This document shows, in pieces, positions 33,064 to 54,968 of a DNA stretch of 64,000 nucleotides. Position 1 is the first letter of the stretch, and every line of letters starts with the position of its first letter. The DNA is taken from positions 62,001 through 126,000 of the forward strand of contig NZ_BATQ01000041.1 in NCBI RefSeq assembly GCF_000739635.1, in the 5' to 3' direction. Under the pieces are notes generated by a model that did not search any database, was not told the origin of the DNA, and was given only the letters and a program-made list of their open reading frames with translations. Origin of the DNA: Verrucomicrobium sp. BvORR034. Lineage in GTDB: Bacteria; Verrucomicrobiota; Verrucomicrobiia; Verrucomicrobiales; Verrucomicrobiaceae. Both the position numbers and the translations under genes were made by a program.

Positions 33064-33140
<77 letters not shown>

Positions 33141-33154
33141 ATTTCAAGTCCTTC

Positions 33155-33190: not shown

Positions 33191-33300
33191 GGCTACCGCC
33201 CCAAACGGGGCGTGTGCCTAGGAAATCACGCTGCGTGTGCCCTGAACCGGCACTTCATTTTCCGGAAGGAATTTGCCTGTGCCCTTTCCCGAGCACAGAC

Positions 33301-37168: not shown

Positions 37169-37420
37169 ATGAAAAATACCAACTCCACGAGCTGGACCGC
37201 TGCTGAGATCGCCCTGCGCTGGGCGGTGCACCCCGCTTCAGTACTTCGGATCATGCGGCGGTTTGGAATTGCCGGCGCCAAGTTCGGCACCTCCCGGCAG
37301 TCTGCCCGACGCTTCTCGGCTGAAGAGCTCAAGTTGGCGGAATCCTATGCCCAGTTGAACAACACTACCCAAGCTAATCATGCAAAACACGACACCACCT
37401 CTGACTGCAAACAATCCTGA
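37169..37420 (+). CDS. Small HTH protein (excisionase-like)
   Basis: 83 aa. A helix-turn-helix of MerR/excisionase type is suggested by WTAAEIALRWAVHPASVLRI followed by MRRFGIAGAKFGTSRQSARRF and FSAEELKLAE. It diverges from the 859-aa gene and overlaps the next gene by 41 bp, so it probably begins the polymerase operon. Could act as excision factor or operon regulator. Confidence 0.6.
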   Translation: MKNTNSTSWTAAEIALRWAVHPASVLRIMRRFGIAGAKFGTSRQSARRFSAEELKLAESYAQLNNTTQANHAKHDTTSDCKQS

Positions 37421-38006
37421 CCTCGCGTCCGTCCTCTCGCAGATGCCCTCTGCCCCTCTGGATCCTCTCGATCTCACTGCCTTTCGTCTCGAAGCGACCA
37501 TCAGCGATGGTGTCGCAAAGAAGGTGCTCACAGTGCTACCGATTCGCAAGCCAGCGAAAGACTCGTTCGTCCGTACGCACCTTGACCCGCAGTGCTGGAT
37601 GGTTTTCGGACTCATCGAGCTTCAAGAAACCAGCCGGATCTATCTTGTCGATCCGAAGATTGTACCTGCACTCCAGGAAAGGGGGGAGGCCACCTTCTTC
37701 CGGGCACACCTTGTCCTGACTGTCGATCGGAAGGGAAACCCGTTCCTGTGGCCGCTAAAGTTTTCCGCACAGGACAACATTTGGCATATTTCGGCGCGGG
37801 GGGCGGCGGAAAAGGCCCGTGAAAAGTGGGTGCGGGTTACTTCCAACAGAGCTGCGGGGTGCTATGACGCGGCTGTTGCGGAGAACCAGGACGCAGAGCC
37901 TCTGTGGCCTGACATGGAGTACAAGGAACTCCTGCGTCTGGCTTTCGGAAATCGGACCATCAACTCTCTGGAGCATCCGGTGCTTCTCGAACTTCGCGGT
38001 GCTTGA
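37380..38006 (+). CDS. Hypothetical protein paired with DNA polymerase
   Basis: 208 aa, soluble; no family recognised. It has a beta-rich middle (FRAHLVLTVDRKGNPFLWPL, IWHISARGAAEKAREKWVRV). Its stop (38004-38006) is one base from the ATG of the polymerase, so the two are translationally coupled. Similar size and position suggest an accessory factor, for instance a DNA-binding or processivity protein, but this is inference only. Confidence 0.65.
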   Translation: MQNTTPPLTANNPDLASVLSQMPSAPLDPLDLTAFRLEATISDGVAKKVLTVLPIRKPAKDSFVRTHLDPQCWMVFGLIELQETSRIYLVDPKIVPALQERGEATFFRAHLVLTVDRKGNPFLWPLKFSAQDNIWHISARGAAEKAREKWVRVTSNRAAGCYDAAVAENQDAEPLWPDMEYKELLRLAFGNRTINSLEHPVLLELRGA

Positions 38007-38007
38007 T

Positions 38008-39717
38008 ATGAAGATTTTCCTTGTGGATTTCGAGTACAGCGCACCTGAAGGTTTCATGCCGAGGCCGATCTGCATGGTTGCTCGGGAGTATTTCTCTGGG
38101 GAGACTGTCAGGTACTGGCTCTGGGATTGTCCGCCCAAGGACTGTCCTATCCCCACTGGGCCTGACGTCCTCTATGTTGCTTATCTTGCGAGTGCGGAAC
38201 TGGGATGCCACCTGGCACTTGGCTGGCAAATGCCAGTCCACGTTCTGGATCTCTACGCTGAGTATCGGTGGATGATTTCCGGGCGCAGGCCCTTTGCAGG
38301 CTACTCTCTGTTGGGAGCCCTCCAGTCATTCGGACTGGGCGGCATGCCCGCCGTCGAGAAGTCCTCGATGCGGGAACTCGCCATCAGGGGTGGCCCATAC
38401 AGTTGTGAGGAGCAACAGCTTCTGCTGAAATACTGTGAATCTGATGTGATTGCTTTGACTCAGCTACTGCACTGCATGCTGCCCCATCTCAATCTCGCTC
38501 TTGCCGTCATTCGTGGCCGCTATATGTCGGCAGTCGCCAAGGTGGAAAGGACCGGGGTCCCGATCGACTACGCTTTGTTGAACGCGATCCAGGCGCGTTG
38601 GAGGGAGCTAATGCTTGGCCTTGTGGAGAAAATGGACCGGGACTACGGAGTGTATGAAGGCACGACCTTCAAGACGGAGCGATGGGCCAAGTGGTGCTCC
38701 GCCGCCGGCATCTGTTGGCCCAAGCTGCCAAGTGGAGAGTTGGATTTGAAGCGGGAAACGTTCCGGAAAATGGGAGTGTTACACCCCCAGGTCTTGCCTA
38801 TGTACGAACTGCGGACGACTCTGGCGGAACTTCGGATCAATAAACTGGCCGTCGGGCCAGACCAACGTAATCGCTACCTCGTGGGCGCTTTCGGAACGAA
38901 AACCGGTCGCAATGCGCCCTCGAGCACGAAGTCGATATTCGGACTGTCTCGGTGGATCAGGCACCTGATAAAGCCCCGTGAAGGCATGGCATTGGCCTAC
39001 ATTGACTGGTGTCAACAGGAACTGGGGATTGCCGCATTGCTTTCAGGAGACCGGGTGATGCAGGAGGTCTACAATTCTCATGACCCTTATCTGGCTTTCG
39101 CCTCATTGGCCGGAGCCGTACCGAAGACCGCCACCAAAGGGAGTCATCCTCGTGAACGTGGGATCTACAAAGTGGCTTCCCTTGCAGTACTAATGGGAAT
39201 GGGGACAGAGGCGCTGGGGGAGGCCACGGGGACTTCTGGCGCAATGGGGGCGAGATTGCTCAGTCAGCACAAGGAAAAATTTTCTAAATTCTGGGAGTGG
39301 TCCGACGGTCAGGTTGACCGGGCGACGATGGGAGAGACGTTGCAGAGCAACTATGGGTGGCAACTGCACCCAGAAATGGATGGACCTACCACCTTCCGGA
39401 ACTTTGGTCTACAGGCGAACGGGGCCGAAATGCTTCGGATCGCTGCGATGGCGATTACCGAGCGCGGAATAAGCCTTTGCGCCCTGGTGCACGACGCTCT
39501 GTTGATTGAGGCACCTTTGGACGAAATCGACGCTGTGGTTGCAGACGTGAAGGCTTGCATGGCCTCTGCCAGCCGCGCTGTGCTCGGGGGTTTTGAACTT
39601 GATACGGAGGCTTACGTCATTCGTTGGCCGAACCGATTCTGCGACGAGCGCGGCGCGAAAATGTGGGAGACAGTGATGGAACTCCTCGGTGCCAATGACT
39701 CACCTGCTCCAGTTTGA
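38008..39717 (+). CDS. Divergent family-A DNA polymerase with 3'-5' exonuclease
   Basis: 569 aa from the ATG at 38008. The N-terminus is a DEDD-type exonuclease: VDFEYS (D7, E9) and YCESD (Y142, D146). The polymerase part has TGRNAPSS (R301), motif A AYIDWCQQELG (D333), motif B RERGIYKVASLAVLMGMGTE (R384/K388), the QANGAEMLR helix and motif C LVHDALLIEA (D496). Compared with Pol I, motif C has Ala for the usual Glu after HD, and the 5' nuclease domain is absent. Both metal-binding Asp residues of the polymerase site remain, so it should be active. It is an element-borne replicase, coupled to the gene upstream. Confidence 0.9.
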   Translation: MKIFLVDFEYSAPEGFMPRPICMVAREYFSGETVRYWLWDCPPKDCPIPTGPDVLYVAYLASAELGCHLALGWQMPVHVLDLYAEYRWMISGRRPFAGYSLLGALQSFGLGGMPAVEKSSMRELAIRGGPYSCEEQQLLLKYCESDVIALTQLLHCMLPHLNLALAVIRGRYMSAVAKVERTGVPIDYALLNAIQARWRELMLGLVEKMDRDYGVYEGTTFKTERWAKWCSAAGICWPKLPSGELDLKRETFRKMGVLHPQVLPMYELRTTLAELRINKLAVGPDQRNRYLVGAFGTKTGRNAPSSTKSIFGLSRWIRHLIKPREGMALAYIDWCQQELGIAALLSGDRVMQEVYNSHDPYLAFASLAGAVPKTATKGSHPRERGIYKVASLAVLMGMGTEALGEATGTSGAMGARLLSQHKEKFSKFWEWSDGQVDRATMGETLQSNYGWQLHPEMDGPTTFRNFGLQANGAEMLRIAAMAITERGISLCALVHDALLIEAPLDEIDAVVADVKACMASASRAVLGGFELDTEAYVIRWPNRFCDERGAKMWETVMELLGANDSPAPV

Positions 39718-39769
39718 AACTTGACCTGCATCAATCTGATACACCCGATCTATATCTTCTCAGTCTTCT

Positions 39770-40213
39770 ATGAAATACTACCTGCAAGATGAAAGTGAAC
39801 CTATCGCTTATGTGATTAGTGGAAAAGGGCAAGGTGCCTCGATGAAGGCTGCTCGTGGAGCCAAGGGCTATAGCGGGAGGAAGTTTATTTGTGGCCCTAT
39901 TCCGCTTTTGTGGATGTGTAAGGCAGTGTCGCTGCCCAAGTGCGGCATCGTTGTGGCCCTTCTCATCTCTTACTGTCGCGGACTGGAAAGGAGTGATAGG
40001 TTCAAGCTCAGACCTGCCCGACTTCGTGAGTTTGGCATTGGCCGATCCAGTGGTAGCCGCGGAATCCTTGCTCTCGAAGAGGCAGGCTTGATTCGTGTAG
40101 TTGACCGACACCGCGGTCGTGCACCACTGATCGAGGTGTTGAACTGGGAGTCGTCCTTTACCGCTGAGCTCTCCGCCTCAAGTGGGCCCATTGAGAATAT
40201 TCAGGTCTACTAG
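39770..40213 (+). CDS. Winged-helix DNA-binding protein, putative
   Basis: 147 aa. The C-terminal half looks like a winged helix: LPKCGIVVALLISYCRGLER, FKLRPARLREFGIGRSSGSR, GILALEEAGLIRVVDRHRGR (recognition helix then wing) APLIEVL. The layout is like the helix-turn-helix of MarR-type or plasmid replication-initiator domains. It follows the polymerase by 52 bp and overlaps the convergent gene's end by four bases. Possibly a replication or copy-control regulator. Confidence 0.55.
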   Translation: MKYYLQDESEPIAYVISGKGQGASMKAARGAKGYSGRKFICGPIPLLWMCKAVSLPKCGIVVALLISYCRGLERSDRFKLRPARLREFGIGRSSGSRGILALEEAGLIRVVDRHRGRAPLIEVLNWESSFTAELSASSGPIENIQVY

Positions 40214-40482
40214 GCGGCAGAGATGGAATCATCTTCAAGCTCATCCTCTTCCTCTTCCTCTTCCTCTTCGTCGAGTCGGGCTAGGTGCTTCCAGGCTTCT
40301 TCCATGAGATGCTGAGACAATGCGAGTTGCTTCTCGTACGGGATGCCAGCCTTGTTCATGGCATCCATGGTGCGTTCCTGGTCGATTCGAATTTCACCGG
40401 AGGCACCGGCGACAAACTCGCCGGTGCCAAGCTCCAGATCCATTTTGAAGCGAATGACCAATTCATCAGAAGGGGTGATCAT
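40210..40482 (-). CDS. Small acidic hypothetical protein
   Basis: 90 aa from the ATG at 40482 (MITPSDELVIRFKMDLELGT). No family recognised. The C-terminus carries an uninterrupted run of eight Glu, coded by a CTTCCT-type microsatellite on the plus strand (about 40243-40276), which is likely to change length by slippage. It is the only leftward gene in this part of the element. Confidence 0.5.
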   Translation of the reverse strand: MITPSDELVIRFKMDLELGTGEFVAGASGEIRIDQERTMDAMNKAGIPYEKQLALSQHLMEEAWKHLARLDEEEEEEEEDELEDDSISAA

Positions 40483-40588
40483 AAGTGAAGCCTGTGATGA
40501 ATGGACGCTCGCGCAACACAAATGTGCGGTCTAACTTTAAATGAGCGCGTTATTGACCAGGCGGTGCAGGTATTGCATGAAATAACTC

Positions 40589-42205
40589 ATGTGCCATGGC
40601 TGGGACATCGCCCCACATGCGAACCGGAGAACCTGCCCGGCTGGACGATTGATTCTCAAGGCTGCCTCAGAGCTTGCTTTTCTCACACAACCCAATTGCC
40701 AGGTGAAGATCGACCAACACTACGCCTCCGATTACTGGACCGAAACTTTCGGCAACACCATCTGTGTGTACTCGCAGGTGCTGGGCTTGCCTCCCGTAGA
40801 GACGGCTCTGTTCATGGCCGGAGTGCTTTGCAATCTCAGCGGCCACACTGCTGCATTGGCGGACGGTGTATCTCATCACGGCATCCCAGGCTTCAGCCTG
40901 ACCGTTGTGGGCTCTGGGGATCATCGGTACCAACGGCTCCTCGACAAGCTGGTAGGGCCGGTGAAGTCGATTCAGGTTCACCTCAGGGAGGGCGCGCTTC
41001 GTTTGAACCGGTCCGTGGTCGATGGGCATACTTTTGGCCCTGTCAATGGATTGGCGGGTTTGCAGGGACAGCCGCGGAGTGAACTGTACGAGCAGTTCCT
41101 GAAAATGTGGGACGCGTCGGCGCAGGTAATGAAGCGCGGGGCAACGGTACCCCATGTTTGGGAGGAAAGGGATCCGATGATCTATTTTGGTAACTATGGC
41201 GAAGTCGAGATGGCATTGCAGTCCCGGCTCCCGGATACCCACCATCGTCCGACCATTCTTCATCTGACCAATGATCTCACCCGGCTCGAGGAGGTTCTGG
41301 GCGAGGTGTTTGATCAGAGGTTGTGGGTCGTGGATACAGCGGGAGGATTTTTTGGGAGCACCTTCAGCAAAGGGGCCGCAGCGGGAAACCGGTCCTTGCT
41401 ACAGTTGGCGTCCCTGCTTGCCGGCAAAGACATCGAGGTGAGCAGGCTCCATCCCGAGCAAGGCTACGGATCGCTTCAGCATGCCCAGGTCAGGGTGATG
41501 ACTTGCTCTTGCGAATCGCGCCTCGCCGACATGCTCTCCATTGAGATGGCTTCAGCCCGTCCCTCGCTTCTTCAGGAAATGTTGCTCGTAGCCCCGCAGT
41601 GGAAACCGATCATCGTGCTCGAAGACCCAAAGTGGTTTGCAGAGGCGCAGGCCGCCTACCGAGCAGCCTTGTTGGAGGTGATCAATCATCGCATCTGCCG
41701 GAACGGACCCGTTCACAAATTGGGTAGCGAGAACATGACCAACATTTGGAAGGTTGAGAGTGCTTTCGTCAATACGCTGGACAGCAGTGCTGTCGATTTG
41801 GGTAGTCACACCAGGGTGCTCTCTTGTTTGGTGCGGCAGTTGGTGTGGGCGTTTGGCCTCCTGAGGCGGGAAGGCGAACCCTTCTGGTGTCTCAGAGCCG
41901 CAGAGGTCGTAGCGCACCATGCCGCAGCGGCACATCTGGGACAGTTGCGAACCTGTCGGCAGCTTGCCAGTTCCTCCGAGGCTCAGCGCCTGGAAGAACG
42001 AATTGTCCGCAACCTGGAAAACAAGGGCCCCTCTACCCGGAGGGAAATCCAGCGGTCCTTGTTCGGTTGCAGGCAGCGTGAACTGGCTGGTGCACTGGAG
42101 GCCTTGATCTCGAAGGGAGCCCTGGCGTTTGACCGCCAGTCTGAACGCTTCGCCATTGATGTGCAGAGGGCGACGATTGCTGGGGAGGGGCACGGCGCAT
42201 CCTGA
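40589..42205 (+). CDS. DUF3987-like element protein 1
   Basis: About 538 aa; the start is uncertain, because the first ~25 residues (MCHGWDIAPHANRRTCPAGR) are not protein-like, and a better-looking stretch lies in another frame upstream (ITHVPWLGHRPTCEPENLPG). The body resembles the DUF3987 class of mobile-element helicase/primase-like proteins in layout (DYWTETFGNTICVYSQVLGL, ETALFMAGVLCNLSG), but no Walker A is present. The C-terminus is a winged-helix-like tail (NKGPSTRREIQRSLFGCRQR, then ALEALISKGALAFDRQSERF). Stop and next start are 2 bp apart. A recent frameshift near 40650 is possible. Confidence 0.55.
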   Translation: MCHGWDIAPHANRRTCPAGRLILKAASELAFLTQPNCQVKIDQHYASDYWTETFGNTICVYSQVLGLPPVETALFMAGVLCNLSGHTAALADGVSHHGIPGFSLTVVGSGDHRYQRLLDKLVGPVKSIQVHLREGALRLNRSVVDGHTFGPVNGLAGLQGQPRSELYEQFLKMWDASAQVMKRGATVPHVWEERDPMIYFGNYGEVEMALQSRLPDTHHRPTILHLTNDLTRLEEVLGEVFDQRLWVVDTAGGFFGSTFSKGAAAGNRSLLQLASLLAGKDIEVSRLHPEQGYGSLQHAQVRVMTCSCESRLADMLSIEMASARPSLLQEMLLVAPQWKPIIVLEDPKWFAEAQAAYRAALLEVINHRICRNGPVHKLGSENMTNIWKVESAFVNTLDSSAVDLGSHTRVLSCLVRQLVWAFGLLRREGEPFWCLRAAEVVAHHAAAAHLGQLRTCRQLASSSEAQRLEERIVRNLENKGPSTRREIQRSLFGCRQRELAGALEALISKGALAFDRQSERFAIDVQRATIAGEGHGAS

Positions 42206-42207
42206 CG

Positions 42208-43641
42208 ATGACCCGAAACATTCTTTCACTGGAGAGACCGATCACTGAGCATCGTGAGTGTGCCTTGCGCCAGGTGCCCTCGGTGGTCAGTGACTACGTG
42301 CAACTGGCAGCCTCCAGGTGGGGGCTTGGTGTGGCTCCCCTTCTTGCCGCCGCGCTGCATCACTTGTGTTCGGTCCAGGCGCACCGGCATCGTTTGCGTG
42401 AGACGCACATTGGCCACTCCTGCCCGTTCAATCTCATCGTTTGCACGCAGCGGCCTTCGCAGGACAGATGGTTCGAGTATATGGGAGAGGCGTGGATGGG
42501 AGTGGTGCGTCACAATATGCGCCAGCATCAAGCCAAGGGGCGTGAACGTCTTGAGGCTGAATACCGCAAGCTTGAGCAAATGAGATTGCTCCCTGTCGGG
42601 ATGGTGGGCAGCCCGGTTCCTGATCAACTGGACAGGCAACTGTTTGAGGTCGCCAATCAGTACAAGCCCTGCCTTGTAGAACGACGGTCGGGAGCCGCGG
42701 CGGCACTGAAGGCCTTGGAGAACTGCAACGACCTTTGCGTACTCCTAACCAATGGTGGGATGGATCCCGTGGAAGAGTTGCTCAATTCGGGACGCAAGGT
42801 CTGTCTGGACCTTGCCTCTCTGCTTAACTTGAGCTGGTCGGACATCGGGCTGCCTGGAAAGTCTCCCGTACCGACCCGTGGCATTGTGCACCTGTACTGG
42901 TGCACGTATGCAAGTGCCCTGCGCCGCCTGCTACTGGGTCTTCGCAGCCCATGGGCTTGCAACCAGCCACCGATTCTGCTGGTGCGGCAGCATGACCCCG
43001 CCTGCCTGAACGAGCTGCCCGTGGAAGACAAAACCAAGGCCTGGGATGAACTCTTGCTGAAGGGGCTGATACAACGACTGGCATTGTCCGAAGTGAGGGC
43101 GTGGTCCTTGTCCCCAGAAGCTTCCCAGATGATGGTGGATTTCAGAAAGCAATCTCTCCAAGACTGGAATGGGGCAGTGGATCCTCTGGCCTTGCCGGAC
43201 TTCTTTCCTTCCCTGGCATTGCGCATGGCCATGTTGCTTTCCGCCCTGGAGTTGAACACGGAGTCTCTGAATGATGCGAGCCTCGTTTCAGTCTCAGTGA
43301 TGGAACGTGCCTGTTGCCTCGCGCAATGGATGGCCAGTGAACATCGGGATTGTCTTCGATGGTTGAAGAATCCCCATGCCGGTGATGTCGATGACCTGCT
43401 TCATGACCGGGGCATCGACACCATTGACTTGGAAACCTTGAAGCGGGCGATTCCCGAAAAACTCCAGGTGAACGGACCACTGTCACCGCGAGATCTGAGC
43501 CGGAGCTTCCATCGTCTTCCCAGAAAGGCTCGAGACCTGGCTCTGGCGCGATTGTTGAAGGATGGTGTGATCGAAGAATTACCCGATGGCAGACTGCGAA
43601 TTGCCCCGACTGCTGCCAATGTCAGCGTCAGCGGCGGTTAG
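42208..43641 (+). CDS. DUF3987-like element protein 2
   Basis: 477 aa. The N-terminal part (VSDYVQLAASRWGLGVAPLL, AAALHHLCSVQAHRHR, GHSCPFNLIVCTQRPSQDRW) follows the DUF3987 pattern up to the point where Walker A would be, but the GxxGxGKS loop is absent. The C-terminus has a winged-helix-like tail (GPLSPRDLSRSFHRLPRKAR, ALARLLKDGVIEELPDGRLR) built like that of the preceding gene, so the two are probably diverged paralogues. Translationally coupled to that gene. A DNA-binding scaffold or inactive helicase-like role fits. Confidence 0.55.
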   Translation: MTRNILSLERPITEHRECALRQVPSVVSDYVQLAASRWGLGVAPLLAAALHHLCSVQAHRHRLRETHIGHSCPFNLIVCTQRPSQDRWFEYMGEAWMGVVRHNMRQHQAKGRERLEAEYRKLEQMRLLPVGMVGSPVPDQLDRQLFEVANQYKPCLVERRSGAAAALKALENCNDLCVLLTNGGMDPVEELLNSGRKVCLDLASLLNLSWSDIGLPGKSPVPTRGIVHLYWCTYASALRRLLLGLRSPWACNQPPILLVRQHDPACLNELPVEDKTKAWDELLLKGLIQRLALSEVRAWSLSPEASQMMVDFRKQSLQDWNGAVDPLALPDFFPSLALRMAMLLSALELNTESLNDASLVSVSVMERACCLAQWMASEHRDCLRWLKNPHAGDVDDLLHDRGIDTIDLETLKRAIPEKLQVNGPLSPRDLSRSFHRLPRKARDLALARLLKDGVIEELPDGRLRIAPTAANVSVSGG

Positions 43642-43751
43642 GGTGGGGGTGTTGCAGCGAGGCGTGAAAGCCTATATCGACAGCTAGGCTGGCGTGCTGC
43701 GTCTTGCCAGATCGACAGAGCCTGCAACAGAGCCTGCTCCTGTGTCATATA

Positions 43752-43770
43752 AACCTGAGAGACTCAGGTT
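43752..43770. promoter_or_regulatory. Perfect palindrome, putative operator
   Basis: AACCTGAG AGA CTCAGGTT, 8-bp arms around a 3-bp centre, 25 bp before the small gene at 43795. A T/A-rich stretch lies just left of it. Likely a repressor site for the block that follows; the binding protein is unknown. Confidence 0.45.
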
Positions 43771-43794
43771 AGCTGATCTCACTATTGCAATCTC

Positions 43795-44010
43795 ATGTCC
43801 CGTCCCCGTCACTATGTACCCTGCATTTCGCGGAACGTGGTGTGCGCTCTATTTCACGAAGCCAAACACCGGCGCAAGCCGATGACCCGGCTCGTGGATG
43901 AACTGCTCACGGCTGCCCTCACCGGCACTCCTGGATGGCAGATCGCGCACACTCCTTCCTCTGTGATTCAGGAATCACCACCCACAGTCTATAGCCCCCC
44001 CAGGCCGTAG
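43795..44010 (+). CDS. Small hypothetical protein
   Basis: 71 aa (MSRPRHYVPCISRNVVCALF, HEAKHRRKPMTRLVDELLTA, ALTGTPGW). The basic, Met-Thr-Arg-Leu-Val-Asp-Glu-Leu-Leu segment resembles the first helix of ribbon-helix-helix proteins. No Shine-Dalgarno sequence is evident. It is the only plausible gene between 43642 and 44127; the rest of that stretch holds the palindrome at 43752 and the hairpin at 44044. Confidence 0.4.
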   Translation: MSRPRHYVPCISRNVVCALFHEAKHRRKPMTRLVDELLTAALTGTPGWQIAHTPSSVIQESPPTVYSPPRP

Positions 44011-44043
44011 CCTTCGATCACTCCTCCTTCCCTTGTTCGACTG

Positions 44044-44068
44044 ACCCGGCCTTGCGCCGGGTTTTGTT
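44044..44068 (+). terminator. Hairpin before 44128 gene
   Basis: ACCCGGC / GCCGGGT stem followed by TTTGTTGTTT. It begins 34 bp after the stop of the small gene and is the first of six hairpins that precede the genes of this block. Confidence 0.75.
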
Positions 44069-44127
44069 GTTTCAGGGGCCGGCGGTTCAACTTCAAAACC
44101 AAACTCCAATTTGAAAGGAACACTTTT

Positions 44128-44685
44128 ATGGCCATCACCTTGTCAGCCAACTACAGCAAAAAGCTCGGCCTACCAGCCTTCAGCAGCCACAGCTTCAGCG
44201 CCTCTGTTCAGGTCGAGCTCACGGACCTTTCTCAGGCCGAAGCCGAATGCCGGAGGCTTTATCAACTACTGCAGCAATCCGTGGATCGTGAGATCCAGCA
44301 AGTCGGCTTTGTGCCCGATCCCTGCACCTACGGCATCGTGGATGGACGGGCCAGCTTCGGCAACGGCCCAGCTCCCTACAAGAAAGGAAGGCGAACGGTG
44401 CCTCTCACCGACGGACAGGCCCGTTCACCCCATGGGACGGACGCTCCGTGGCTCTGCACCGAAGGCCAGCGGGGATTCATTCTGCGCCTGGTCAGCGACT
44501 ATCAACTCGACAAGCAACGCATTGATGACCTCGCCCTCCAGCTCTTCGGAGTCGGGGTGAGACTGCTCAACAAGATGCAGGCTTCCCAGCTCATTGATGA
44601 GTTGCTCACTCAGGTTGGCAAACCCCGCCAGACGCGCCTGCGGCATCCAACTCTCAACGGTCATGCTCATGACCGCGCTGCCTGA
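44128..44685 (+). CDS. Hypothetical element protein
   Basis: 185 aa, soluble. It starts MAITLSANYSKKLGLPAFSS and contains VQVELTDLSQAEAECRRLYQ; the C-terminal half is helical (DDLALQLFGVGVRLLNKMQA). No family recognised. A GAAAGGA ribosome-binding site precedes the ATG at 44128, after a G-poor leader. The wording of its start (SFSVSVQVEL-like) recalls small single-strand-binding accessory proteins, but this is too weak to name it. Confidence 0.6.
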   Translation: MAITLSANYSKKLGLPAFSSHSFSASVQVELTDLSQAEAECRRLYQLLQQSVDREIQQVGFVPDPCTYGIVDGRASFGNGPAPYKKGRRTVPLTDGQARSPHGTDAPWLCTEGQRGFILRLVSDYQLDKQRIDDLALQLFGVGVRLLNKMQASQLIDELLTQVGKPRQTRLRHPTLNGHAHDRAA

Positions 44686-44731
44686 GGGCCCGGTACCTGC
44701 CGCCCCACAAAGGACATCCCAAACTCCACAA

Positions 44732-44765
44732 CAGCGGAGGCGTGGTGATCGACCCGCCATCGCTG
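44732..44765 (+). terminator. Hairpin before 44798 gene
   Basis: CAGCG-GA-GGCG pairs with CGCC-AT-CGCTG (two stems with one internal loop), followed by CTTTC and a G-poor leader to the ATG at 44798. Weaker than the others of the series. Confidence 0.45.
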
Positions 44766-44797
44766 CTTTCAACCCTCAGTTCATCATCACTACCATC

Positions 44798-46414
44798 ATG
44801 TCATTCCCATTCTTCAAAGGTGTGGTCCTTTCCATGGGCCACGCCTTCCTTCTACAGGGGCTGTTGCTCCTGTGTCCCTTCAGTCTGGTGGCGGGTGCCC
44901 AGCCCTCCACCAGCATCGTTCCAGATGAGAAGTACTTCCTCCTCCGGTTGCTGGAAGAAATGCCCGGGTTCCATGCCCCGGCAGATGTTTCATCACAGGC
45001 CCTGGAGCGTTCCCTTAGTTCCTGGCGCAGTGCGCTGGTCCGACACGCCGCCGACCTCAAACGTCAGCCTAGCTATGCGGAGCTCGAACCGCTCTTCCTC
45101 AAGCAGATCGAGCTGGTGGACTTTCAGGCCAGCCAGCTTGTCAGTCTGGGGAAACTCGAACAACAGGTGCTCAATCAGCAGATCCAGAGCGGCTTTGACT
45201 CCGGATACGCTGGAGGCATGGCGGGATCTCAAGCTGCTGCCTTGGCCTCAGAGAACGGCTTCTCCAACGGAGAATCCCTCCTGGCTGGAGCCGCCGTTGG
45301 TCTGTTCACCTACTTCGCAGAAAACCAGCAGCGTTCCGACGCGCTGGCCAACGCGCAGCAGGATCAGTTCCTCCAAGCTGATCGCGCCTGGCGGACTCGG
45401 TGGTCTGAATACCAGGCCCAGGTTGCTGCCACCGCCCTGGCGCTCTCAGAACAACATCAATGGCCTCGGGGTTCGGTAGGCTGGGACGAAACTCCCCAAG
45501 AAGATGTCCGGCTGGCAGGCTTGATCAACGCCAGTGACGTGAAGGCGCTTCAGGCAGAGTTTGAAGCCCAACGGCGCCGGCGTCCTCAGGATCCGTTTGC
45601 TGTTTCTCGTGTGGCCATGCTCGCTCCCTTTGTGGAGTCAGATCCCGCCCGACTTGCTACAGTGGCCGAGGACTGCGCCAACGCTGCGGCGTGGGTGCCT
45701 GCACGACGCATCTATGACCCCTACCGGTATCTGCTCGCCTATCGGGCGGCCGATACCCACGTCAAGGCAGTGGGGCACGCTCTCAAAGGCAAGGCACGTG
45801 TCAATGCCCGGGATCCCCTGGCGTTGCGCGCGATCCAGTACTGGGACGCCTGTCTGGCTCTCGATCCTGGTGATGCCACCGGCGAACTGCGGGAACGCAA
45901 AGCCTGGATGCTCATGACCAGTGGTCTGGTGGACAATGCTTACACGTTGGCTACCGCGGTCGCTCCGCTGCGTGGGCGCACCTTCCGCTACCACTACAAC
46001 ATGGCGGTCCTCAACACCTATCGTGGCGGCGACAACGCGGCCCTGGAACACTTGGACGCCACCGTCCGGATTCCCGGGTGCAACATCAAGCCCTTGTGGA
46101 CCGATCTGGATCTCGCGCCTTTGCGAAATCGTCAGAAGCAAAGGTTCGAGAACATCCTCAAGGTCAACTGGAAGTCTGAAGTCGTCTTCGGCGTCCTGCT
46201 TGATGATGTGGTGCTGCACAACAAGTCACCCTTCACGCTGACCAACGTGGTCTACCAGACCAACATCCGTTCGGGCAGCCAATGGTTCCGCAAGGAACTG
46301 ACGGTAGCCTCCATCGGACCCGGCCAAAGCCATCGCTGGATCAACGTCCTCTCCATTCCGGGAGGCAAGATCGACTACTCATCGCCTTCGTTGCGATGTG
46401 ACCAGTCGCGTTAA
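44798..46414 (+). CDS. Exported protein of unknown function, helical repeats
   Basis: 538 aa from the ATG at 44798 (MSFPFFKGVVLSMGHAFLLQ). A signal peptide ends near LVAGAQPS. A long helical region with a glycine-zipper-like stretch (GFDSGYAGGMAGSQAAALAS) is followed by TPR-like helices (YWDACLALDPGDATGELRER, AWMLMTSGLVDNAYTLATAV) and a beta-rich C-terminus (SPFTLTNVVYQTNIRSGSQW). No enzyme motif. Possibly a cell-envelope protein of the element; together with the next two genes (lipoprotein, membrane protein) it may form one envelope module. Confidence 0.65.
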   Translation: MSFPFFKGVVLSMGHAFLLQGLLLLCPFSLVAGAQPSTSIVPDEKYFLLRLLEEMPGFHAPADVSSQALERSLSSWRSALVRHAADLKRQPSYAELEPLFLKQIELVDFQASQLVSLGKLEQQVLNQQIQSGFDSGYAGGMAGSQAAALASENGFSNGESLLAGAAVGLFTYFAENQQRSDALANAQQDQFLQADRAWRTRWSEYQAQVAATALALSEQHQWPRGSVGWDETPQEDVRLAGLINASDVKALQAEFEAQRRRRPQDPFAVSRVAMLAPFVESDPARLATVAEDCANAAAWVPARRIYDPYRYLLAYRAADTHVKAVGHALKGKARVNARDPLALRAIQYWDACLALDPGDATGELRERKAWMLMTSGLVDNAYTLATAVAPLRGRTFRYHYNMAVLNTYRGGDNAALEHLDATVRIPGCNIKPLWTDLDLAPLRNRQKQRFENILKVNWKSEVVFGVLLDDVVLHNKSPFTLTNVVYQTNIRSGSQWFRKELTVASIGPGQSHRWINVLSIPGGKIDYSSPSLRCDQSR

Positions 46415-46453
46415 TCCTCCGGCAAGGCACAGTGCTTTGCTCGCCCCTCCATC

Positions 46454-46488
46454 GCCCCGTGCCGACACCCGTTGGCACGGGGCTTTTT
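46454..46488 (+). terminator. Hairpin before lipoprotein gene
   Basis: Perfect 10-bp stem GCCCCGTGCC / GGCACGGGGC followed by TTTTTC, 40 bp after the preceding stop. Confidence 0.85.
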
Positions 46489-46540
46489 CATTTCAATCCC
46501 CACTCAATCCAAACCCAAACTCAAACCTTCAGACCCAACC

Positions 46541-46807
46541 ATGAAATCATCCCTGCTATTGCTGTTGAGCGTCCTGCTGCTGGCGTCCTGCGCCAAGCAA
46601 CCCCCCAGGACGGTCATCCAGCCTGATGAACAGGCCCGACGTCGCGTCGTGGAACTGGAGCAGCAACTCCAGCTTCAGCGTAAGAACACCGACCGCTGGG
46701 AATTCTACACCGGATGCCTGGGTGTCGCCTGCCTGGTCTGCCTTGTTATCGGAACCTCCCTTGGAGCCAAGACCCGCCATGACTCCCTCCTTCAATCCCG
46801 CCTCTGA
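46541..46807 (+). CDS. Small lipoprotein
   Basis: 88 aa from the ATG at 46541. Signal peptide with lipobox LLASC (MKSSLLLLLSVLLLASCAKQ), a coiled-coil stretch (QARRRVVELEQQLQLQRKNT) and one C-terminal membrane helix (FYTGCLGVACLVCLVIGTSL). This two-anchor build resembles phage Rz/Rz1-like or entry-exclusion lipoproteins. It overlaps the next gene by 29 bp. Confidence 0.65.
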   Translation: MKSSLLLLLSVLLLASCAKQPPRTVIQPDEQARRRVVELEQQLQLQRKNTDRWEFYTGCLGVACLVCLVIGTSLGAKTRHDSLLQSRL

Positions 46808-47306
46808 CGAGGACGACGATCCCTGGCAGGCTTCCGATCAATTGTCTGCCCGGGCTCCAGATCCATCCGAGAAGCCCACTTGGGTGCGTCGCACGCGAGG
46901 GTTGATCACCACCACGTGGTCTCCGCAACCGCTGCCTACGCCCCGGGTGGATCCTGAGCTCTCGCAGTTCTCCGGCGTGGAGCGTTCCGCCGAGGTCTTT
47001 CGCTACAACTTCCGTTTGGCGGAATACTGGCTGTCCCCGGGAGGATTCATGCGGGAGTGGATCCGGTTGAATGTCCGCATCGCCCTGGCGCTGCTGGTCC
47101 CTTCAGTCCTGGTCGTTCCGCTGGTCACCTACACGCTGCAACAGTTCAGCGTGTGGACAGAGCTCCTAGCCACCACCACTTCCAAGATGGTGCTCTTCCC
47201 GCTGTCAGCCTTGCTGGTGGTGGGACTCGTCTGGGGTCTGGTCCATCTGGCCAAGTCCTTCCAAGGACGACCGCGGCACCGTCATCCCCATCAGTACTAC
47301 GAGTGA
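46779..47306 (+). CDS. Membrane protein of the element
   Basis: 175 aa from the ATG at 46779 (MTPSFNPASDEDDDPWQASD). A hydrophilic N-terminal half is followed by two membrane helices (IALALLVPSVLVVPLVTYTL and MVLFPLSALLVVGLVWGLVH). No family recognised. Overlap with the lipoprotein gene indicates coupled translation and a probable shared role in the envelope. Confidence 0.6.
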   Translation: MTPSFNPASDEDDDPWQASDQLSARAPDPSEKPTWVRRTRGLITTTWSPQPLPTPRVDPELSQFSGVERSAEVFRYNFRLAEYWLSPGGFMREWIRLNVRIALALLVPSVLVVPLVTYTLQQFSVWTELLATTTSKMVLFPLSALLVVGLVWGLVHLAKSFQGRPRHRHPHQYYE

Positions 47307-47353
47307 GCCCTCACGGCTTGCGCGGATTCACCCACAAACCCAGCCCACGCATC

Positions 47354-47386
47354 AGAGCCGTCCGCCGCACCCCGGTGGACGGCTCT
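47354..47386 (+). terminator. Hairpin before ligase gene
   Basis: Perfect 10-bp stem AGAGCCGTCC / GGACGGCTCT followed by TGTGCTTTC, about 48 bp after the preceding stop and about 43 bp before the ligase ATG. Confidence 0.8.
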
Positions 47387-47428
47387 TGTGCTTTCAACCC
47401 ACCCCAACCTCAAACCTCAGAACCGTTC

Positions 47429-48502
47429 ATGGAAACCACCACCCTCTACTGTCAGCAAGGTCCTTCGGACAAAGTGTACAGTGTCAGCCTCAAACCCGAA
47501 GGTGACGGCCATGTCGTCCTCTTCGCCTACGGCCGTCGCAATGCCACGCTCAACACGGGGCGCAAGACGCCTCACCCCGTGCCCTACGATCAAGCCAAGG
47601 CCTGCTACGACGGACTCGTCCGTGAAAAGCTCGCCAAAGGCTATCAGCACGGCGAACCTGGGACGGACTACCAGCCTTCACGGCCCGGCAAGCCGTTCAC
47701 CGGCATCCTGCCCCAGTTGCTCAATCCGGTCGATGCTGACGATCTGTCCGGTCTGCTGGATCATCCGGCATTCTGGATGCAGGAGAAGCACGACGGGCGG
47801 CGGCTTCTGCTACGGCGGCGGTCCGATCTGGTCACGGGCATCAACCGTCTGGGCCTGGAAACCTCCGTGCCCATGCCCATGGTGGAAGCGGCCCGGCGCA
47901 GTGTTCACGACTTCGTCGTGGATGGCGAAGCGGTGGGCAATTGTCTGTGCACCTTTGACCTGCTGGAGCTCGATGGTGAGGACTTGAGGGGGCTGCCTTA
48001 CGGGCAGCGTTACCTCAAGCTCATCCAGGTGCTCGCCCCCTTGAAAACCGCCAACCTTCACTTCGTGCAGACCGCGTTCCTGCCGCATGAAAAACACCGG
48101 ATGCTTGAGGAGCTCAGGCAGCAGGGGAGGGAAGGGGTGGTGTTCAAGTCCTGCGATGCGCCGCACTCTGCAGGTCGTCTCTCCTCGGGTGGACCGCAGC
48201 TCAAGCACAAGTTCTATGAAACGGCCTCCTTCATCGTGGGCCGCATCAATGAACAGCGCAGTGTGGGCCTGTTGCTCTTTGAGGGCGACCGGATCCGTCC
48301 TGCAGGCAATGTCACCATCCCTCCCAACCACGATCTGCCCCTCTCGGGCCAGGTGGTGGAGTGCCGCTACCTCTATGCGTTTCGCGAAAGCGGAGCCATC
48401 TATCAGCCGGTCTTCCTGGGCATTCGGGAAGATGTGCTCTCAGCAGAGTGCCTCACCGGCCAGCTCAAATACAAAAGTGAACCCCTCGGTCAGGCCGCCT
48501 GA
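47429..48502 (+). CDS. WGR-domain ATP-dependent DNA ligase
   Basis: 357 aa from the ATG at 47429 (METTTLYCQQGPSDKVYSVS). Residues 5-80 form a WGR domain (VVLFAYGRRNATL). The ligase core has motif I EKHDGRR (K120, site of adenylation), motif III FVVDGEAV (E167), motif IV REGVVFKS (K240) and motif V QLKHKF (K259/K261), and ends with an OB-fold-like region. It is an ATP-dependent enzyme, distinct from the NAD-dependent LigA that bacteria use for replication. Its place beside an element polymerase and clamp suggests it seals element DNA or repairs ends. Confidence 0.88.
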   Translation: METTTLYCQQGPSDKVYSVSLKPEGDGHVVLFAYGRRNATLNTGRKTPHPVPYDQAKACYDGLVREKLAKGYQHGEPGTDYQPSRPGKPFTGILPQLLNPVDADDLSGLLDHPAFWMQEKHDGRRLLLRRRSDLVTGINRLGLETSVPMPMVEAARRSVHDFVVDGEAVGNCLCTFDLLELDGEDLRGLPYGQRYLKLIQVLAPLKTANLHFVQTAFLPHEKHRMLEELRQQGREGVVFKSCDAPHSAGRLSSGGPQLKHKFYETASFIVGRINEQRSVGLLLFEGDRIRPAGNVTIPPNHDLPLSGQVVECRYLYAFRESGAIYQPVFLGIREDVLSAECLTGQLKYKSEPLGQAA

Positions 48503-48533
48503 CCACCGGTAGAACCCAACCCGCCCTCATCCC

Positions 48534-48584
48534 ACGCCACGAGCCCCTCGCTTCCTTCCGGAGGCAGGGGCTCGTGGCGTTTTG
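48534..48584 (+). terminator. Hairpin before clamp gene
   Basis: Long stem ACGCCACGAGCCCCT / AGGGGCTCGTGGCGT (15 bp, perfect) followed by TTTTG. Confidence 0.88.
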
Positions 48585-48627
48585 GGAGGACTCATTCAGC
48601 CCCAACCCATTTTGAAAGGATTTCATC

Positions 48628-50100
48628 ATGACCCCCATCTCGCTGCCCATGGCAGAACTCAAACCGGCTCTCACCGGGCTGGGCAAGATCATCCACCGTC
48701 AGTCTACTCTGCCGGTGCTTCAGTGCCTGCGGATTGAACGCACCGTCGACGGCTGGGTGTGCCTGACGGCCACCAATCTGGAGCGTTACGCGACCGTCCG
48801 GCTGGAACAGCCTGCCGAGGGCGACCCTTGTACCCTGCTCGTTCACTTTGACGATCTGGTGCGCGTTGCCAAAGCCTGCGTCCGACAAGAGAGCATCGGC
48901 ATTGAGCAAACCTCGCCCAAGTGCGTGAGCGCAAGCTTTGCCCTCGCAGGCAAGATCGGCATGAACAAGCTCCGGTCCCTTCCTGTGGCCGAGTATCCCG
49001 ACCTGCCCAGAATCGCTGGCGAACCTGTTCCTTTACCCGGACCGTTCCGCACGGCGCTGAAGGAGGCGATGGATTGCACCAGCAAGGACCACACCCGGCC
49101 AGTGCTGGAGGGCGTCTGCATCGATGTCAGCGTGCCTGATGCCCACTATGTGGTGGGCACCGACGGGAAGCACCTGTACAGCGGCAACTCACTCCAGCTG
49201 GCGTTGCCCCATTCTCTGGTCTTGCCCCGGCACAAGTTTCTGGCGTGGCGGGACTTTCAATCAGATGGCGAGTGGTGGCTCACCAAGGGCGCTCACAACG
49301 GTCTGGACCATGTGCAGATCAGTTCCCGCCGCTGGCGGTTCATCACCCGGGTCATCGATCATCCTTACCCCTCCTGGCGGCAGGTGGTACCCGGCGACAA
49401 ACGGTTCATGACGGCCATCCGATTCGATCCCCTGAAGCTTGATGGCGTCCTCCAAATGCTGGAGCAGATGGAAGAGCAGGAGGATGAATTCCGCACCGTT
49501 GGCATCGAATGGCGAGGCGGCAAGGTCCAGTTCCTTCACCACCCTGCCAATGCTGGCAAAGCCTGGGATGAGGTGGCCGTGCCGGGTGCATCGGGGCAGG
49601 GGGTGGAAGTCACAGTCTTCTGCAACCGGCTCCTGCTGCTCAAGGCCCTCAAGTTCGGGCTGCTCGAGCTCGACCTTATTGATGAACTCAGCCCCCTGCG
49701 GTTCCGCGAGGGCGGGCGTCGCCTCATCGTCATGCCCGTCCGGGTCAGGACCACCTCCGATCCCGAACCCGGCCCTGTCCCCGTCAACGCCCCGGCGCCT
49801 CGTCATTTGCCCCCGATCAAAGCCCCCCATCCCCATTCAGCACCCGACATGAAACCACCCATCAATTCAAACCCTCTGGCAGATCCCCGACTCCAGCCAC
49901 CTGCAGAACCGGGTTCACCCCGGCTGGAGGACGTTCTGGAGTCGCTCGACCAGTTGAGGGATTCCTGCACCAAGAGTCTGTCACAGATCAAGGACCTCAC
50001 CGGCAAGCTCCGTCTAATCCAGCGGGATCAGCGTTCCTCCCAGCGAGGCCTGCAGACGGTGCGGCACACCTTGCGGTCCCTCCAGGGGATCCGGTTCTAG
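48628..50100 (+). CDS. DnaN-like sliding clamp with C-terminal extension
   Basis: 490 aa. Residues 1-370 follow the three-domain beta-clamp pattern: domain 1 LKPALTGLGKIIHRQSTLPV...CLTATNLERYATV, RSLPVAEYPDLPRI; domain 2 FRTALKEAMDCTSKDHTRPV, YVVGTDGKHLY; domain 3 with FREGGRRLIVMPVRV at the end (the family's terminal PMRL-like strand). Residues 370-490 are an extra Pro-rich linker and a coiled coil (LEDVLESLDQLRDSCTKSLS) not found in chromosomal DnaN. A GAAAGGA site precedes the ATG. It probably tethers the element polymerase and ligase to DNA. Confidence 0.87.
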   Translation: MTPISLPMAELKPALTGLGKIIHRQSTLPVLQCLRIERTVDGWVCLTATNLERYATVRLEQPAEGDPCTLLVHFDDLVRVAKACVRQESIGIEQTSPKCVSASFALAGKIGMNKLRSLPVAEYPDLPRIAGEPVPLPGPFRTALKEAMDCTSKDHTRPVLEGVCIDVSVPDAHYVVGTDGKHLYSGNSLQLALPHSLVLPRHKFLAWRDFQSDGEWWLTKGAHNGLDHVQISSRRWRFITRVIDHPYPSWRQVVPGDKRFMTAIRFDPLKLDGVLQMLEQMEEQEDEFRTVGIEWRGGKVQFLHHPANAGKAWDEVAVPGASGQGVEVTVFCNRLLLLKALKFGLLELDLIDELSPLRFREGGRRLIVMPVRVRTTSDPEPGPVPVNAPAPRHLPPIKAPHPHSAPDMKPPINSNPLADPRLQPPAEPGSPRLEDVLESLDQLRDSCTKSLSQIKDLTGKLRLIQRDQRSSQRGLQTVRHTLRSLQGIRF

Positions 50101-50133
50101 ACGTCATCTCCACCAGTTCGAATTCGCCCACGT

Positions 50134-50164
50134 GCCAGGCTCATCCTTCTCAGGGTGACCTGGC
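50134..50164 (+). terminator. Hairpin before DUF932 gene
   Basis: GCCAGG-TCA-CC pairs with GG-TGA-CCTGGC with small bulges, followed by CGCTTTGTTTTC. Confidence 0.7.
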
Positions 50165-50251
50165 CGCTTTGTTTTCGGACAGCTCACTCCCCCGACAATC
50201 CACCCATCAACACCCCCCTTAGAAATCCAAACCTTCAAACCAAGTATCACC

Positions 50252-51022
50252 ATGAACCAACTCATTGAACCACCGCGCGTGCGTCGCATGCCCAACCTCA
50301 TGCTCCATTGTGGAGCCCATACCGTCGACATGGCAGACGTCGCCGGCGTCAGCACTCCCCGTGCTACTTCCACCTGGACGCCCATTCCGCATGCCCAGCT
50401 CATCCAGACCGTGCAACGGGCTCTGGGTGCGGCAGGGCTGCGTATTGGCACCCAGGCTCACAGCCTCAGTCACGAAGGCCAGCGCTACTTTGGTCTCATG
50501 GAGATCAACGGTGGTCGGGCCAACGACGACTACTGCTGGGTCCTGGGCCTGCGCAACAGCCACGACAAGACGTTCCCCGCCGGCATCGTGGCCGGGGCCA
50601 GCGTTTTTGTTTGTGATAATTTGTCGTTTTCAGGCGAGGTGAAGTTCGCCCGTAAACACACCCGCTACATTGTGCGGGATCTGCCTCTGCTCACGGGGAG
50701 GTCCATCGGTCAGTTGATGTCCAAGTGGACGCACCAGGACCGGCGGATTGCGGCCTACAAGGAAGCCAGTCTAGACGACGTCACGGCCCATGATCTCATC
50801 ATCCGAGCAACGGATGTCGGCGTGTGCAGCAACCGGCTCATCCCATCTGTCTTGGGTGAATGGCGGGAACCGCGGCACCAGGTGTTCCAACCGCGCAATG
50901 CCTGGAGCTTGTTCAATGCCTTTACGGAATCCCTCAAGGAGGGAAGCTTGGCGGAATTGCCCAAGCGGACGGAGGCGTTGCACGGGTTGATGGACAGTCA
51001 TGTTGGGCTTGGGCTCAACTAG
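50252..51022 (+). CDS. DUF932 (phage/plasmid-like) protein
   Basis: 256 aa. The DUF932 core is clear: NGGRANDDYCWVLGLRNSHD, FPAGIVAGASVFVCDNLSFS, EVKFARKHTRYIVRDLPLLT. The family is found mainly in plasmids, phages and integrative elements; its function is not settled, although some members lie in recombination or anti-restriction loci. It is the last rightward gene of the hairpin-separated block. Confidence 0.88.
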   Translation: MNQLIEPPRVRRMPNLMLHCGAHTVDMADVAGVSTPRATSTWTPIPHAQLIQTVQRALGAAGLRIGTQAHSLSHEGQRYFGLMEINGGRANDDYCWVLGLRNSHDKTFPAGIVAGASVFVCDNLSFSGEVKFARKHTRYIVRDLPLLTGRSIGQLMSKWTHQDRRIAAYKEASLDDVTAHDLIIRATDVGVCSNRLIPSVLGEWREPRHQVFQPRNAWSLFNAFTESLKEGSLAELPKRTEALHGLMDSHVGLGLN

Positions 51023-53554: not shown

Positions 53555-54581
53555 TGGGAAGCGGTTTTCTTCTGCGCGTAGTCGCCGAGGAAATCTTCTT
53601 CTTGAACTGCTGCGCCGCTTTGAGAATGTCAGAGTTCCTCGCGGAAGCACGGTTCTCAATAACGGTCTCTTTTGCCACCTCAAAAACGGCCCTTTCCACT
53701 TCGGCAAACGAGCAACCCGCCATGCCTTTTGCTACGGGACTCAGGCTCCCCGCAATCTTAATTCCGCTAGTGAGATGTTTCAAAAGTGCCAACCGGTCCG
53801 CTTCGGAAGGAAGTGGAAACTCCACAACATCGTCAAAACGACGCCAAAGAGCACTGTCGAACAAATGAGTGTGATTCGACGCGAGGATCACGATGCTTTG
53901 GGACGACGTGAATGAATCCAGACCTTGCAGCAGAGCATTTACCACCCGCCTAAGCTCCCCTACATCATTATTATCATCGCGCGACTTTGCAATTGCATCT
54001 GCCTCATCAATGAGAAGCACCATGGGGGTCTGATTGGCAATCTGAAGTACCTTTTGAATATTTGCGCCAGTTTCGCCAACGTAACTGGTAATCAAGGCAG
54101 CCAAACGAACGACTCCAAATGTCAATCCCAACTTTTGAGCTAGCCATTGTGCCGTAGCGGTTTTGCCACACCCCGGTGGCCCCCAAAAGAGCAGCTTGCG
54201 ACGAGGCATCAAGCCAGCTTCCGCAAGTTTGGTTGCAGACCGATGTTCTCTCAAAACAATGTCAATGGAATTGAGAGTTTCCTTGGGAAGAACCAAATGG
54301 CGGGAATCTGAACTTTGACTGAATGAGATCAATCCTGGCATCTGTCGCGTAAGAACCGAGATTGAAAGATTTGCGGCCGAAGGAGGGGCAACAGATGACG
54401 TTCCATTTTTCAATTCTTTGGGGCGAAGAGCCTCTCGAAGTGCCCGAGCTTCGCTGGGTCGATTCTGGACCGTGAACGCTCGTATAATCGCCTCAGTACC
54501 ACGTCGAAAGGCATCCTCGTCGTGTTCACGATGGGACACGATCATCGTTCGGAGGCTTTCGACCAAATCTTGGAATGCCAT
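53514..54581 (-). CDS. AAA+ ATPase partner of the protease
   Basis: 355 aa. An N-terminal region with helices (1-80) precedes one AAA+ module: Walker A GPPGCGKT (134-141), pore-loop-like SYVGETG (166-172), Walker B LLIDEAD (189-195), sensor 1 Asn236 and arginine finger(s) in ALWRRFD (247-248). It resembles the FtsH/p97-type AAA clade. It overlaps the protease gene by 41 bp, suggesting a two-component, ATP-driven protease or an ATPase that gates the protease. Such AAA+/S8 pairs occur in accessory regions; a defence role is possible but unproved. Confidence 0.9.
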   Translation of the reverse strand: MAFQDLVESLRTMIVSHREHDEDAFRRGTEAIIRAFTVQNRPSEARALREALRPKELKNGTSSVAPPSAANLSISVLTRQMPGLISFSQSSDSRHLVLPKETLNSIDIVLREHRSATKLAEAGLMPRRKLLFWGPPGCGKTATAQWLAQKLGLTFGVVRLAALITSYVGETGANIQKVLQIANQTPMVLLIDEADAIAKSRDDNNDVGELRRVVNALLQGLDSFTSSQSIVILASNHTHLFDSALWRRFDDVVEFPLPSEADRLALLKHLTSGIKIAGSLSPVAKGMAGCSFAEVERAVFEVAKETVIENRASARNSDILKAAQQFKKKISSATTRRRKPLPNEHRNATVAVCGT

Positions 54582-54722: not shown

Positions 54723-54968
54723 TCATGAATTGCTCCGCGTTTCCACCTCAGAGATGAGATCGGAGAGAGGAACGCCAAGGCCGTCAGCCAGAAGTTTGCA
54801 AATTAAGATCGAGGGGACACGTGTTCCAGCTTCCAGCATGATGATTCCGGTCCTGCCCACCTTCGAGACCTCGGCCAGTTTCTTCTGAGAAAGCCCAGCG
54901 TTCTGGCGGGCCTCGCGAAACACTGCTGCCAGGGTTTGGGTGAACTCTGCTGTGGGATCTTGCGACAA
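54723..54968 (-). CDS. XRE-family HTH regulator
   Basis: 81 aa. Typical Cro/CI helix-turn-helix: LAAVFREARQNAGLSQKKLA, EVSKVGRTGIIMLEAGTRVP, LICKLLADGLGVPLSDLI. It stands 141 bp upstream of the ATPase gene on the same strand. A perfect 18-bp palindrome lies 35 bp upstream of its start, the expected position for autoregulation. It may control the ATPase/protease pair and the rightward genes. Confidence 0.88.
   Translation of the reverse strand: MSQDPTAEFTQTLAAVFREARQNAGLSQKKLAEVSKVGRTGIIMLEAGTRVPSILICKLLADGLGVPLSDLISEVETRSNS

Follow-up and report, generated by a model that had tools for sequence, protein, structure and literature searches.

Several described systems share features with the locus presented here. 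Integrative and conjugative elements (ICEs) of the SXT/R391 group combine chromosomal integration and variable cargo with an exonuclease and an annealing-type partner, and this bet/exo pair (s065/s066) promotes the formation of hybrid ICEs (PMC2786100). Another pair of this kind is lambda Red, formed by Exo and Red-beta, and it has been established that the C-terminal domain (CTD) of Red-beta binds both lambda exonuclease and SSB (PMC8303780). Ordinary defence and genomic islands are also related, as they possess tRNA attachment (att) sites, a tyrosine recombinase and defence cargo. The locus under study lies in a 64,000-nt stretch of Verrucomicrobium sp. BvORR034 (GCF_000739635.1, contig NZ_BATQ01000041.1, 62,001-126,000), hereafter the window. 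All positions are window positions, and those beyond its end on the same contig (C160) are called window-equivalent, so that C160:169899 is window-equivalent 107899. What is described here is the left-hand portion of an integrative island of ~75 kb that is inserted in a tRNA-Met gene. The island contains a cassette that encodes a sliding clamp and a DNA ligase of its own and is the mark of a family of tRNA-targeting integrative elements extending across Verrucomicrobiota. We consider it probable, although well short of certain, that such a cassette, in an island of this type, provides a Red-like module that resects, anneals, fills and seals DNA, thereby repairing and shuffling the islands.

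The left border of the island is formed by two features:

33064-33140, + strand: tRNA-Met(CAT), integration target and left att site (ARAGORN, Rfam).
33214-34560, + strand: tyrosine recombinase (Phage_integrase 3e-9, phrog_1 5e-32), the sole PF00589 match on the window's contig.

This arrangement agrees with the tRNA-linked integrase recognised in the original prediction. The tRNA-Met 3′ end together with its flanking sequence (core 33096-33148) is repeated exactly over 53 bp at window-equivalent 107899, and a shorter copy follows at ~108.28 kb. The corresponding site is empty in G003, a complete genome of the same genus, where the left flank (91% identical over 5.4 kb) continues via the tRNA into the sequence that lies to the right of 107.9 kb here, the inserted length being 74,803 bp. 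The att repeat together with the uninterrupted site in G003 therefore delimits an island of ~75 kb, with a G+C content of 57.2% versus 61.5% on either flank. Having a recombinase beside a tRNA, a tRNA repeat at the far border and an empty site in a relative, the region qualifies as a tRNA-targeting integrative element. The right-hand junction had been placed near 51 kb, making an element of 14 kb, but a direct search for an att copy found no tRNA-end repeat there; this junction was rejected, as it is the cassette that ends at ~51 kb and not the element. Tandem partial copies of tRNA-Met and a terminator-like hairpin are found 3′ of the tRNA in several species (L008:5896-6470, equal to window-equivalent 107896-108470, and L108:6323-7197), and they are probably relics of earlier integrations.

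Inside the island, clamp, ligase and DUF932 gene belong to one conserved cassette. Its copy in the window occupies 43.7-51.1 kb:

43795-44010, + strand: p70, first small cassette open reading frame (ORF; family of 15 loci).
44128-44685, + strand: p185, with a conserved N-terminal domain, a low-complexity linker and a C-terminal domain predicted to resemble the Red-beta CTD.
44798-46414, + strand: p538, secreted-looking ORF in the slot of the relatives' PD-(D/E)XK nuclease.
46535-46807, + strand: p90, small lipoprotein-like membrane ORF (conserved in f1 loci).
46626-47306, + strand: MEM204, conserved membrane protein, start uncertain (family of 15 loci).
47429-48502, + strand: ATP-dependent DNA ligase with an N-terminal WGR-like region (DNA_ligase_A_M 1.9e-11).
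48628-50100, + strand: dedicated beta sliding clamp, extended by a Pro-rich linker and a C-terminal helix (NCBIfam dnaN 9.7e-14, phrog_947 processivity factor 4e-23).
50252-51022, + strand: DUF932 protein, last cassette gene (DUF932 4.4e-9).

The recurrent order around the clamp is p70, p185, PD-(D/E)XK nuclease, p90, membrane protein, ligase, clamp and DUF932. Linkage was counted over 70 other clamp loci from named genomes, using for each gene those loci long enough to judge: p185 accompanies the clamp in 43/43 and the nuclease in 41/43, while a ligase lies upstream of the clamp in 23/43 and DUF932 is present in 30/55. For clamp, ligase and DUF932, the last of which had been correctly named, these counts bear out the earlier suggestion of an element family in this phylum. 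All cassette loci in the genome contigs searched come from Verrucomicrobiota, except for two metagenome bins labelled Desulfomonile and Proteobacteria, and p185 is spread across the phylum (50/289 genomes searched). A phage or plasmid origin of the cassette was rejected, as IMG/VR held no relative of the clamp, phage records gave distant dnaN-like and ligase matches only and no p185, and plasmid records yielded one distant dnaN-like match; in this absence from phage records and IMG/VR, p185 and clamp differ from lambda Red. Among open-licence papers, nothing was found on DUF932 together with a sliding clamp, DUF3150 or Verrucomicrobiota, which is not proof of novelty.

The closest partners of the clamp are p185 and the nuclease. 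In the structural model of p185, the CTD matches three Red-beta CTD entries (Z 7.4-8.0, the next match of that part reaching 4.2), a resemblance backed by a match probability of 0.96, by Z and by the agreement of three entries of one protein. The nuclease gene lies directly 3′ of p185, with a 4-nt overlap in several loci, and its product in relatives matches PDDEXK_1 (1.2e-30) as well as exonuclease PHROGs and keeps the catalytic D-DYK and Cys motifs. The Red-beta-CTD-like fold of p185 and the adjoining intact nuclease therefore support a Red-like pair. As in lambda Red, nuclease and Red-beta-CTD-like protein adjoin in the relatives, the nuclease having been lost in the window copy. Unlike Red-beta, p185 has no demonstrated Red-beta annealing domain, and nothing clearly matches its N-terminal domain of 65 residues: residues 1-69 are modelled as a hairpin plus a helix, for which the best matches are LptE-like at Z <=6 and no single-strand annealing protein is listed, and the middling LptE- and CapZ-like matches of this domain are left uninterpreted. 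The differences from SXT/R391 are that p185 shares only the fold of the Red-beta CTD, the family has tRNA targets, a PDDEXK_1/Cas4-like nuclease, its own clamp and ligase and DUF932, and no conjugation genes were recognised in the window island. More specifically, reading through the ORFs of the 75-kb island, supplemented by partial hidden Markov model scans, revealed neither a relaxase nor a coupling protein nor mating-pair genes, a survey that was not systematic; the original prediction had likewise seen no conjugation gene.

The association of the cassette with mobile elements extends well beyond the window. At five loci a same-strand tRNA gene ends ~580-630 bp before p185. Three further cassettes are framed by tRNA-end repeats, namely G025_C7 (79 bp at 97%, 71 kb apart), G033_C3 (36 bp, 37 kb) and G033_C10 (75 bp exact, 45 kb), the last two with an integrase beside the repeat. 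When integrases were called by Pfam scan in 12 genomes with 21 cassettes, a non-Xer integrase was found no more than 25 kb away from 11/21 cassettes, where 0.8 would be expected (P ~4e-11, an optimistic value because the clustering of variable regions is ignored). In G025, one cassette at tRNA-Tyr and another at tRNA-Leu share 91% identity over 6.8 kb and show no likeness elsewhere in the stretches compared. The genome G255 carries five copies of a 2-3 kb block consisting of p185, nuclease, two small membrane ORFs and DUF932, which are 93-98% identical in differing surroundings; an ORF precedes each core copy, with an integrase-domain match in 3/5, mostly below cut-off, and two of the copies are bounded by exact repeats of a tRNA end (62 bp, element of ~21.6 kb; 53 bp, element of ~16.8 kb). 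The same data speak to the idea that the cassette is a chromosomal DNA-repair operon, found near tRNA hot spots only in the way that variable regions are. Although its clamp, ligase and nuclease are what a repair operon would typically contain and the att repeat went undetected for some cassettes, integrase proximity, the att-framed elements, the uninterrupted tRNA site of G003 and the presence, within one genome, of nearly identical cores in unlike neighbourhoods make this very improbable, the att-framed copies largely contradicting it. Just outside the integrase end of another family island, G023_C2, a MobA/MobL relaxase gene (L226:18508-19326, + strand) and an ORF that reads by eye as a coupling protein (L226:16514-17998, - strand) were observed.

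The Red-like module that we favour would be built on a core of integrase, p185, PD-(D/E)XK nuclease, small membrane proteins and DUF932, to which Verrucomicrobiales add the beta clamp and often the ATP ligase. The nuclease would resect DNA ends; p185, through its Red-beta-like CTD, would bind both the nuclease and host SSB and aid strand annealing; the gaps would be filled by a clamp-recruited polymerase, either that of the host or a variable island-borne one; and the ligase would seal the product. By analogy with bet/exo of SXT/R391, the outcome might be the repair of islands after excision or transfer and the exchange of cargo among islands by homologous recombination. The mosaic cargo described below fits a hybrid-forming role such as that of the bet/exo pair of SXT/R391 (PMC2786100). 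This scheme takes its footing from observed anatomy, linkage, insertion borders, conservation and folds, and each of its biochemical steps we infer. A core that stays constant at the integrase/tRNA side, and of which one genome has five copies with differing cargo, would be a concrete candidate engine for island shuffling, and bears on the open question of how defence islands swap cargo, in a poorly studied phylum. Ordinary tRNA islands, unlike this family, lack such a recombination-type core that is constant across the phylum, with clamp and ligase in fixed order.

Several points weigh against this proposal. Activity, excision and transfer are predictions, and a tRNA or att repeat was not detected for every cassette. 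The Red-beta CTD match has a weak Foldseek E-value (0.8), and both an annealing domain in p185 and strand annealing by this protein are conjectural. The conserved membrane proteins of the cassette are not accounted for by a recombination role. In addition, the window copy and that of Verrucomicrobium sp. BvORR106 (G002) are without an intact nuclease: the slot in the window is taken by the unrelated p538 and G002 retains a mere remnant of the gene. Having lost the nuclease, the window copy may be partly dead or dependent on another exonuclease. Finally, the minimal core has no clamp, whose role may therefore be a separate one; clamp and ligase look like additions to that core in Verrucomicrobiales.

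Clamps of their own are known from few non-viral elements. The cassette clamp, whose extra tail had already been noted, is predicted to form a three-domain beta-clamp ring (pLDDT, the predicted local distance difference test, 84, mostly >90 in the ring; match to E. coli beta at E 1e-25), followed in the model by a disordered linker and a long helix. This helix (residues 433-488, 56 residues), behind the Pro-rich linker, is conserved in homologues. While the ring fold is shared with DnaN and a VMPVR motif lies near the normal clamp end, the cassette clamp differs from it in the Pro-rich linker, in the 56-residue helix and in always lying beside p185. The host dnaN is a separate gene (C129:68243-69298), to which the cassette clamp is ~26% identical, so the latter is not the housekeeping clamp, nor the host's only dnaN, but a second, dedicated one. 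Full-length homologues of the tailed clamp occur in many genomes of the family, with as many as five clamp matches in a single genome. The window's own genome has a third clamp-like gene (L125:10494-11612, on G000:C74), which is 27% identical to the cassette clamp, has neither p185 nor DUF932 nearby and lies ~11 kb from an integrase on its contig. As for the ligase, its nucleotidyl-transferase motifs I, III, IV and V are intact; the earlier designation as a WGR-domain ATP ligase holds for the ligase and not for the WGR domain, whose match stays below the Pfam cut-off (16.2 bits versus 22). More tentatively, and in our view somewhat less likely than not, these elements may constitute a so far undescribed, phylum-wide family of tRNA elements that join a Red-like backbone to a clamp and ligase of their own. 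The result would be a portable complex for break repair, in which the helix of the clamp tail would tether the nuclease-annealing complex to the ring and by which defence cargo would be swapped between islands.

Between the integrase and the cassette lies a different set of genes:

34552-37131, - strand: 859-aa protein (p859), passenger between integrase and polA (weak helix-turn-helix match only).
37380-38006, + strand: hyp208, partner of PolA in G013 and G024 (passenger unit).
38008-39717, + strand: family-A DNA polymerase (PolA), from a separate element type (Pfam DNA_pol_A 2e-17).
39770-40213, + strand: p147, conserved behind PolA in G013 (passenger unit).
40589-42205, + strand: 538-aa ORF, first labelled DUF3987-like; no family match.
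42208-43641, + strand: 477-aa ORF with a sub-threshold DUF3987 match (1.9e-4; 21.2 bits versus a cut-off of 27).

The polymerase was correctly described as a family-A enzyme without a 5′ nuclease domain, whereas the label given to the two DUF3987-like proteins is weak, one match falling below cut-off and the other being absent. PolA also matches the PADLOC model RTasPolA (DRT-associated polymerase, 9e-19). It is present in 3/143 genomes, the window's own included, and in G013 a PolA that is 67% identical lies with homologues of hyp208 and p147 in a ~21-kb element between two tRNA-Arg copies, without clamp or ligase. None of the 70 other clamp loci contains PolA, the DUF3987-like genes, p859 or the window's integrase. 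PolA was therefore rejected as a gene of the clamp family, and the window holds two units rather than one, PolA and the DUF3987-like genes being passengers from another element type that arrived separately. Comparison with G002 leads to the same two-unit picture, since the blocks 43.72-44.69 and 46.45-51.08 kb are 87-93% identical in it while the sequences between and around them are replaced.

This separation bears directly on the original prediction, in which polymerase, clamp and ligase formed a partly self-sufficient replication module that would replicate the excised element. Clamp and ligase are indeed dedicated and linked to each other among homologues, and some islands do have a polymerase or primase, but the polymerase is unlinked to the clamp and differs, or was not found, in most cassettes. 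Moreover, the cassette loci compared show no conserved clamp loader, helicase or initiator alongside the clamp, whose conserved partners, p185 and the nuclease, point to recombination or repair. We regard such a module as improbable; the conserved machinery looks like one for recombination rather than autonomous replication. What had been observed is confirmed in part, and its interpretation is partly supported.

Several islands seem to encode their own polymerase or primase, and the type of enzyme differs among them, PolA being that of the window. A 1418-aa fusion of a DinB-type Y-family polymerase and DNA polymerase III alpha (domains IMS, IMS_C, PHP, DNA_pol3_alpha, finger, HHH and OB) occurs in G023 and G033_C10. 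Its two genes (L063:5573-9826 and L225:8978-13231, both - strand) each mark the far end of a family island, next to genes for a UmuD-like peptidase and an SRAP protein. Near the other end of G255 elements, a DNA_pol_B_2 polymerase (G255_1476; L233:1008-3518, + strand) and a PrimPol/VapE-like protein (G255_3221; L238:11136-13430, - strand) were found.

The cargo of the window island begins immediately after the cassette:

51134-53707, - strand: IetS, subtilisin-like defence protease (PADLOC 1e-61).
53514-54581, - strand: IetA, AAA ATPase and IetAS partner (PADLOC 5.5e-77).

This pair of AAA ATPase and subtilisin-like protease constitutes an IetAS system. The same island contains Wadjet-type JetA, JetC and JetD at window-equivalent 83-91 kb (L007:1-7705, equal to 83001-90705), together with ORFs reading as TonB receptors and an RND metal-efflux set. 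A few other islands were described, a survey that is not an enrichment test. G033_C10 has Druantia DruE, type I restriction and a CARF-RtcR protein, G023_C2 a CBASS cyclase together with its effector, and G255 both type III restriction and Gabija-like genes, while in G033_C3 ORFs reading as RND efflux genes take the place of defence. The cargo seen so far is largely composed of defence and metal-efflux genes. Such company raises the question of whether the cassette itself is anti-phage, in that clamp and DUF932 would sense or mark foreign replication forks and direct the nuclease at them, while the membrane proteins would supply an additional effector arm. Its presence in islands rich in known defence systems, its nuclease and small membrane proteins and its multiple copies are compatible with this, but the cassette is the constant part at the integrase/tRNA side and the defence systems are the variable one, it also occurs in the island with RND efflux genes, the clamp has no PADLOC match, and nuclease-less Verrucomicrobium copies persist. 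An anti-phage function of the cassette appears unlikely. For a recombination module at the constant side of these islands, the combination of p185, nuclease and DUF932 represents a marker with which to find them, and the unknown genes beside the cassette are good candidates for new defence systems.

Two minor features of the cargo were also recorded. A helix-turn-helix gene lies upstream of IetAS (54723-54968). Besides, two secreted-protein paralogues in the island (55334-56182 and L007:10560-11495) share 84% DNA identity over 1.1 kb, and relatives of them are likewise found behind the cassette in G002.

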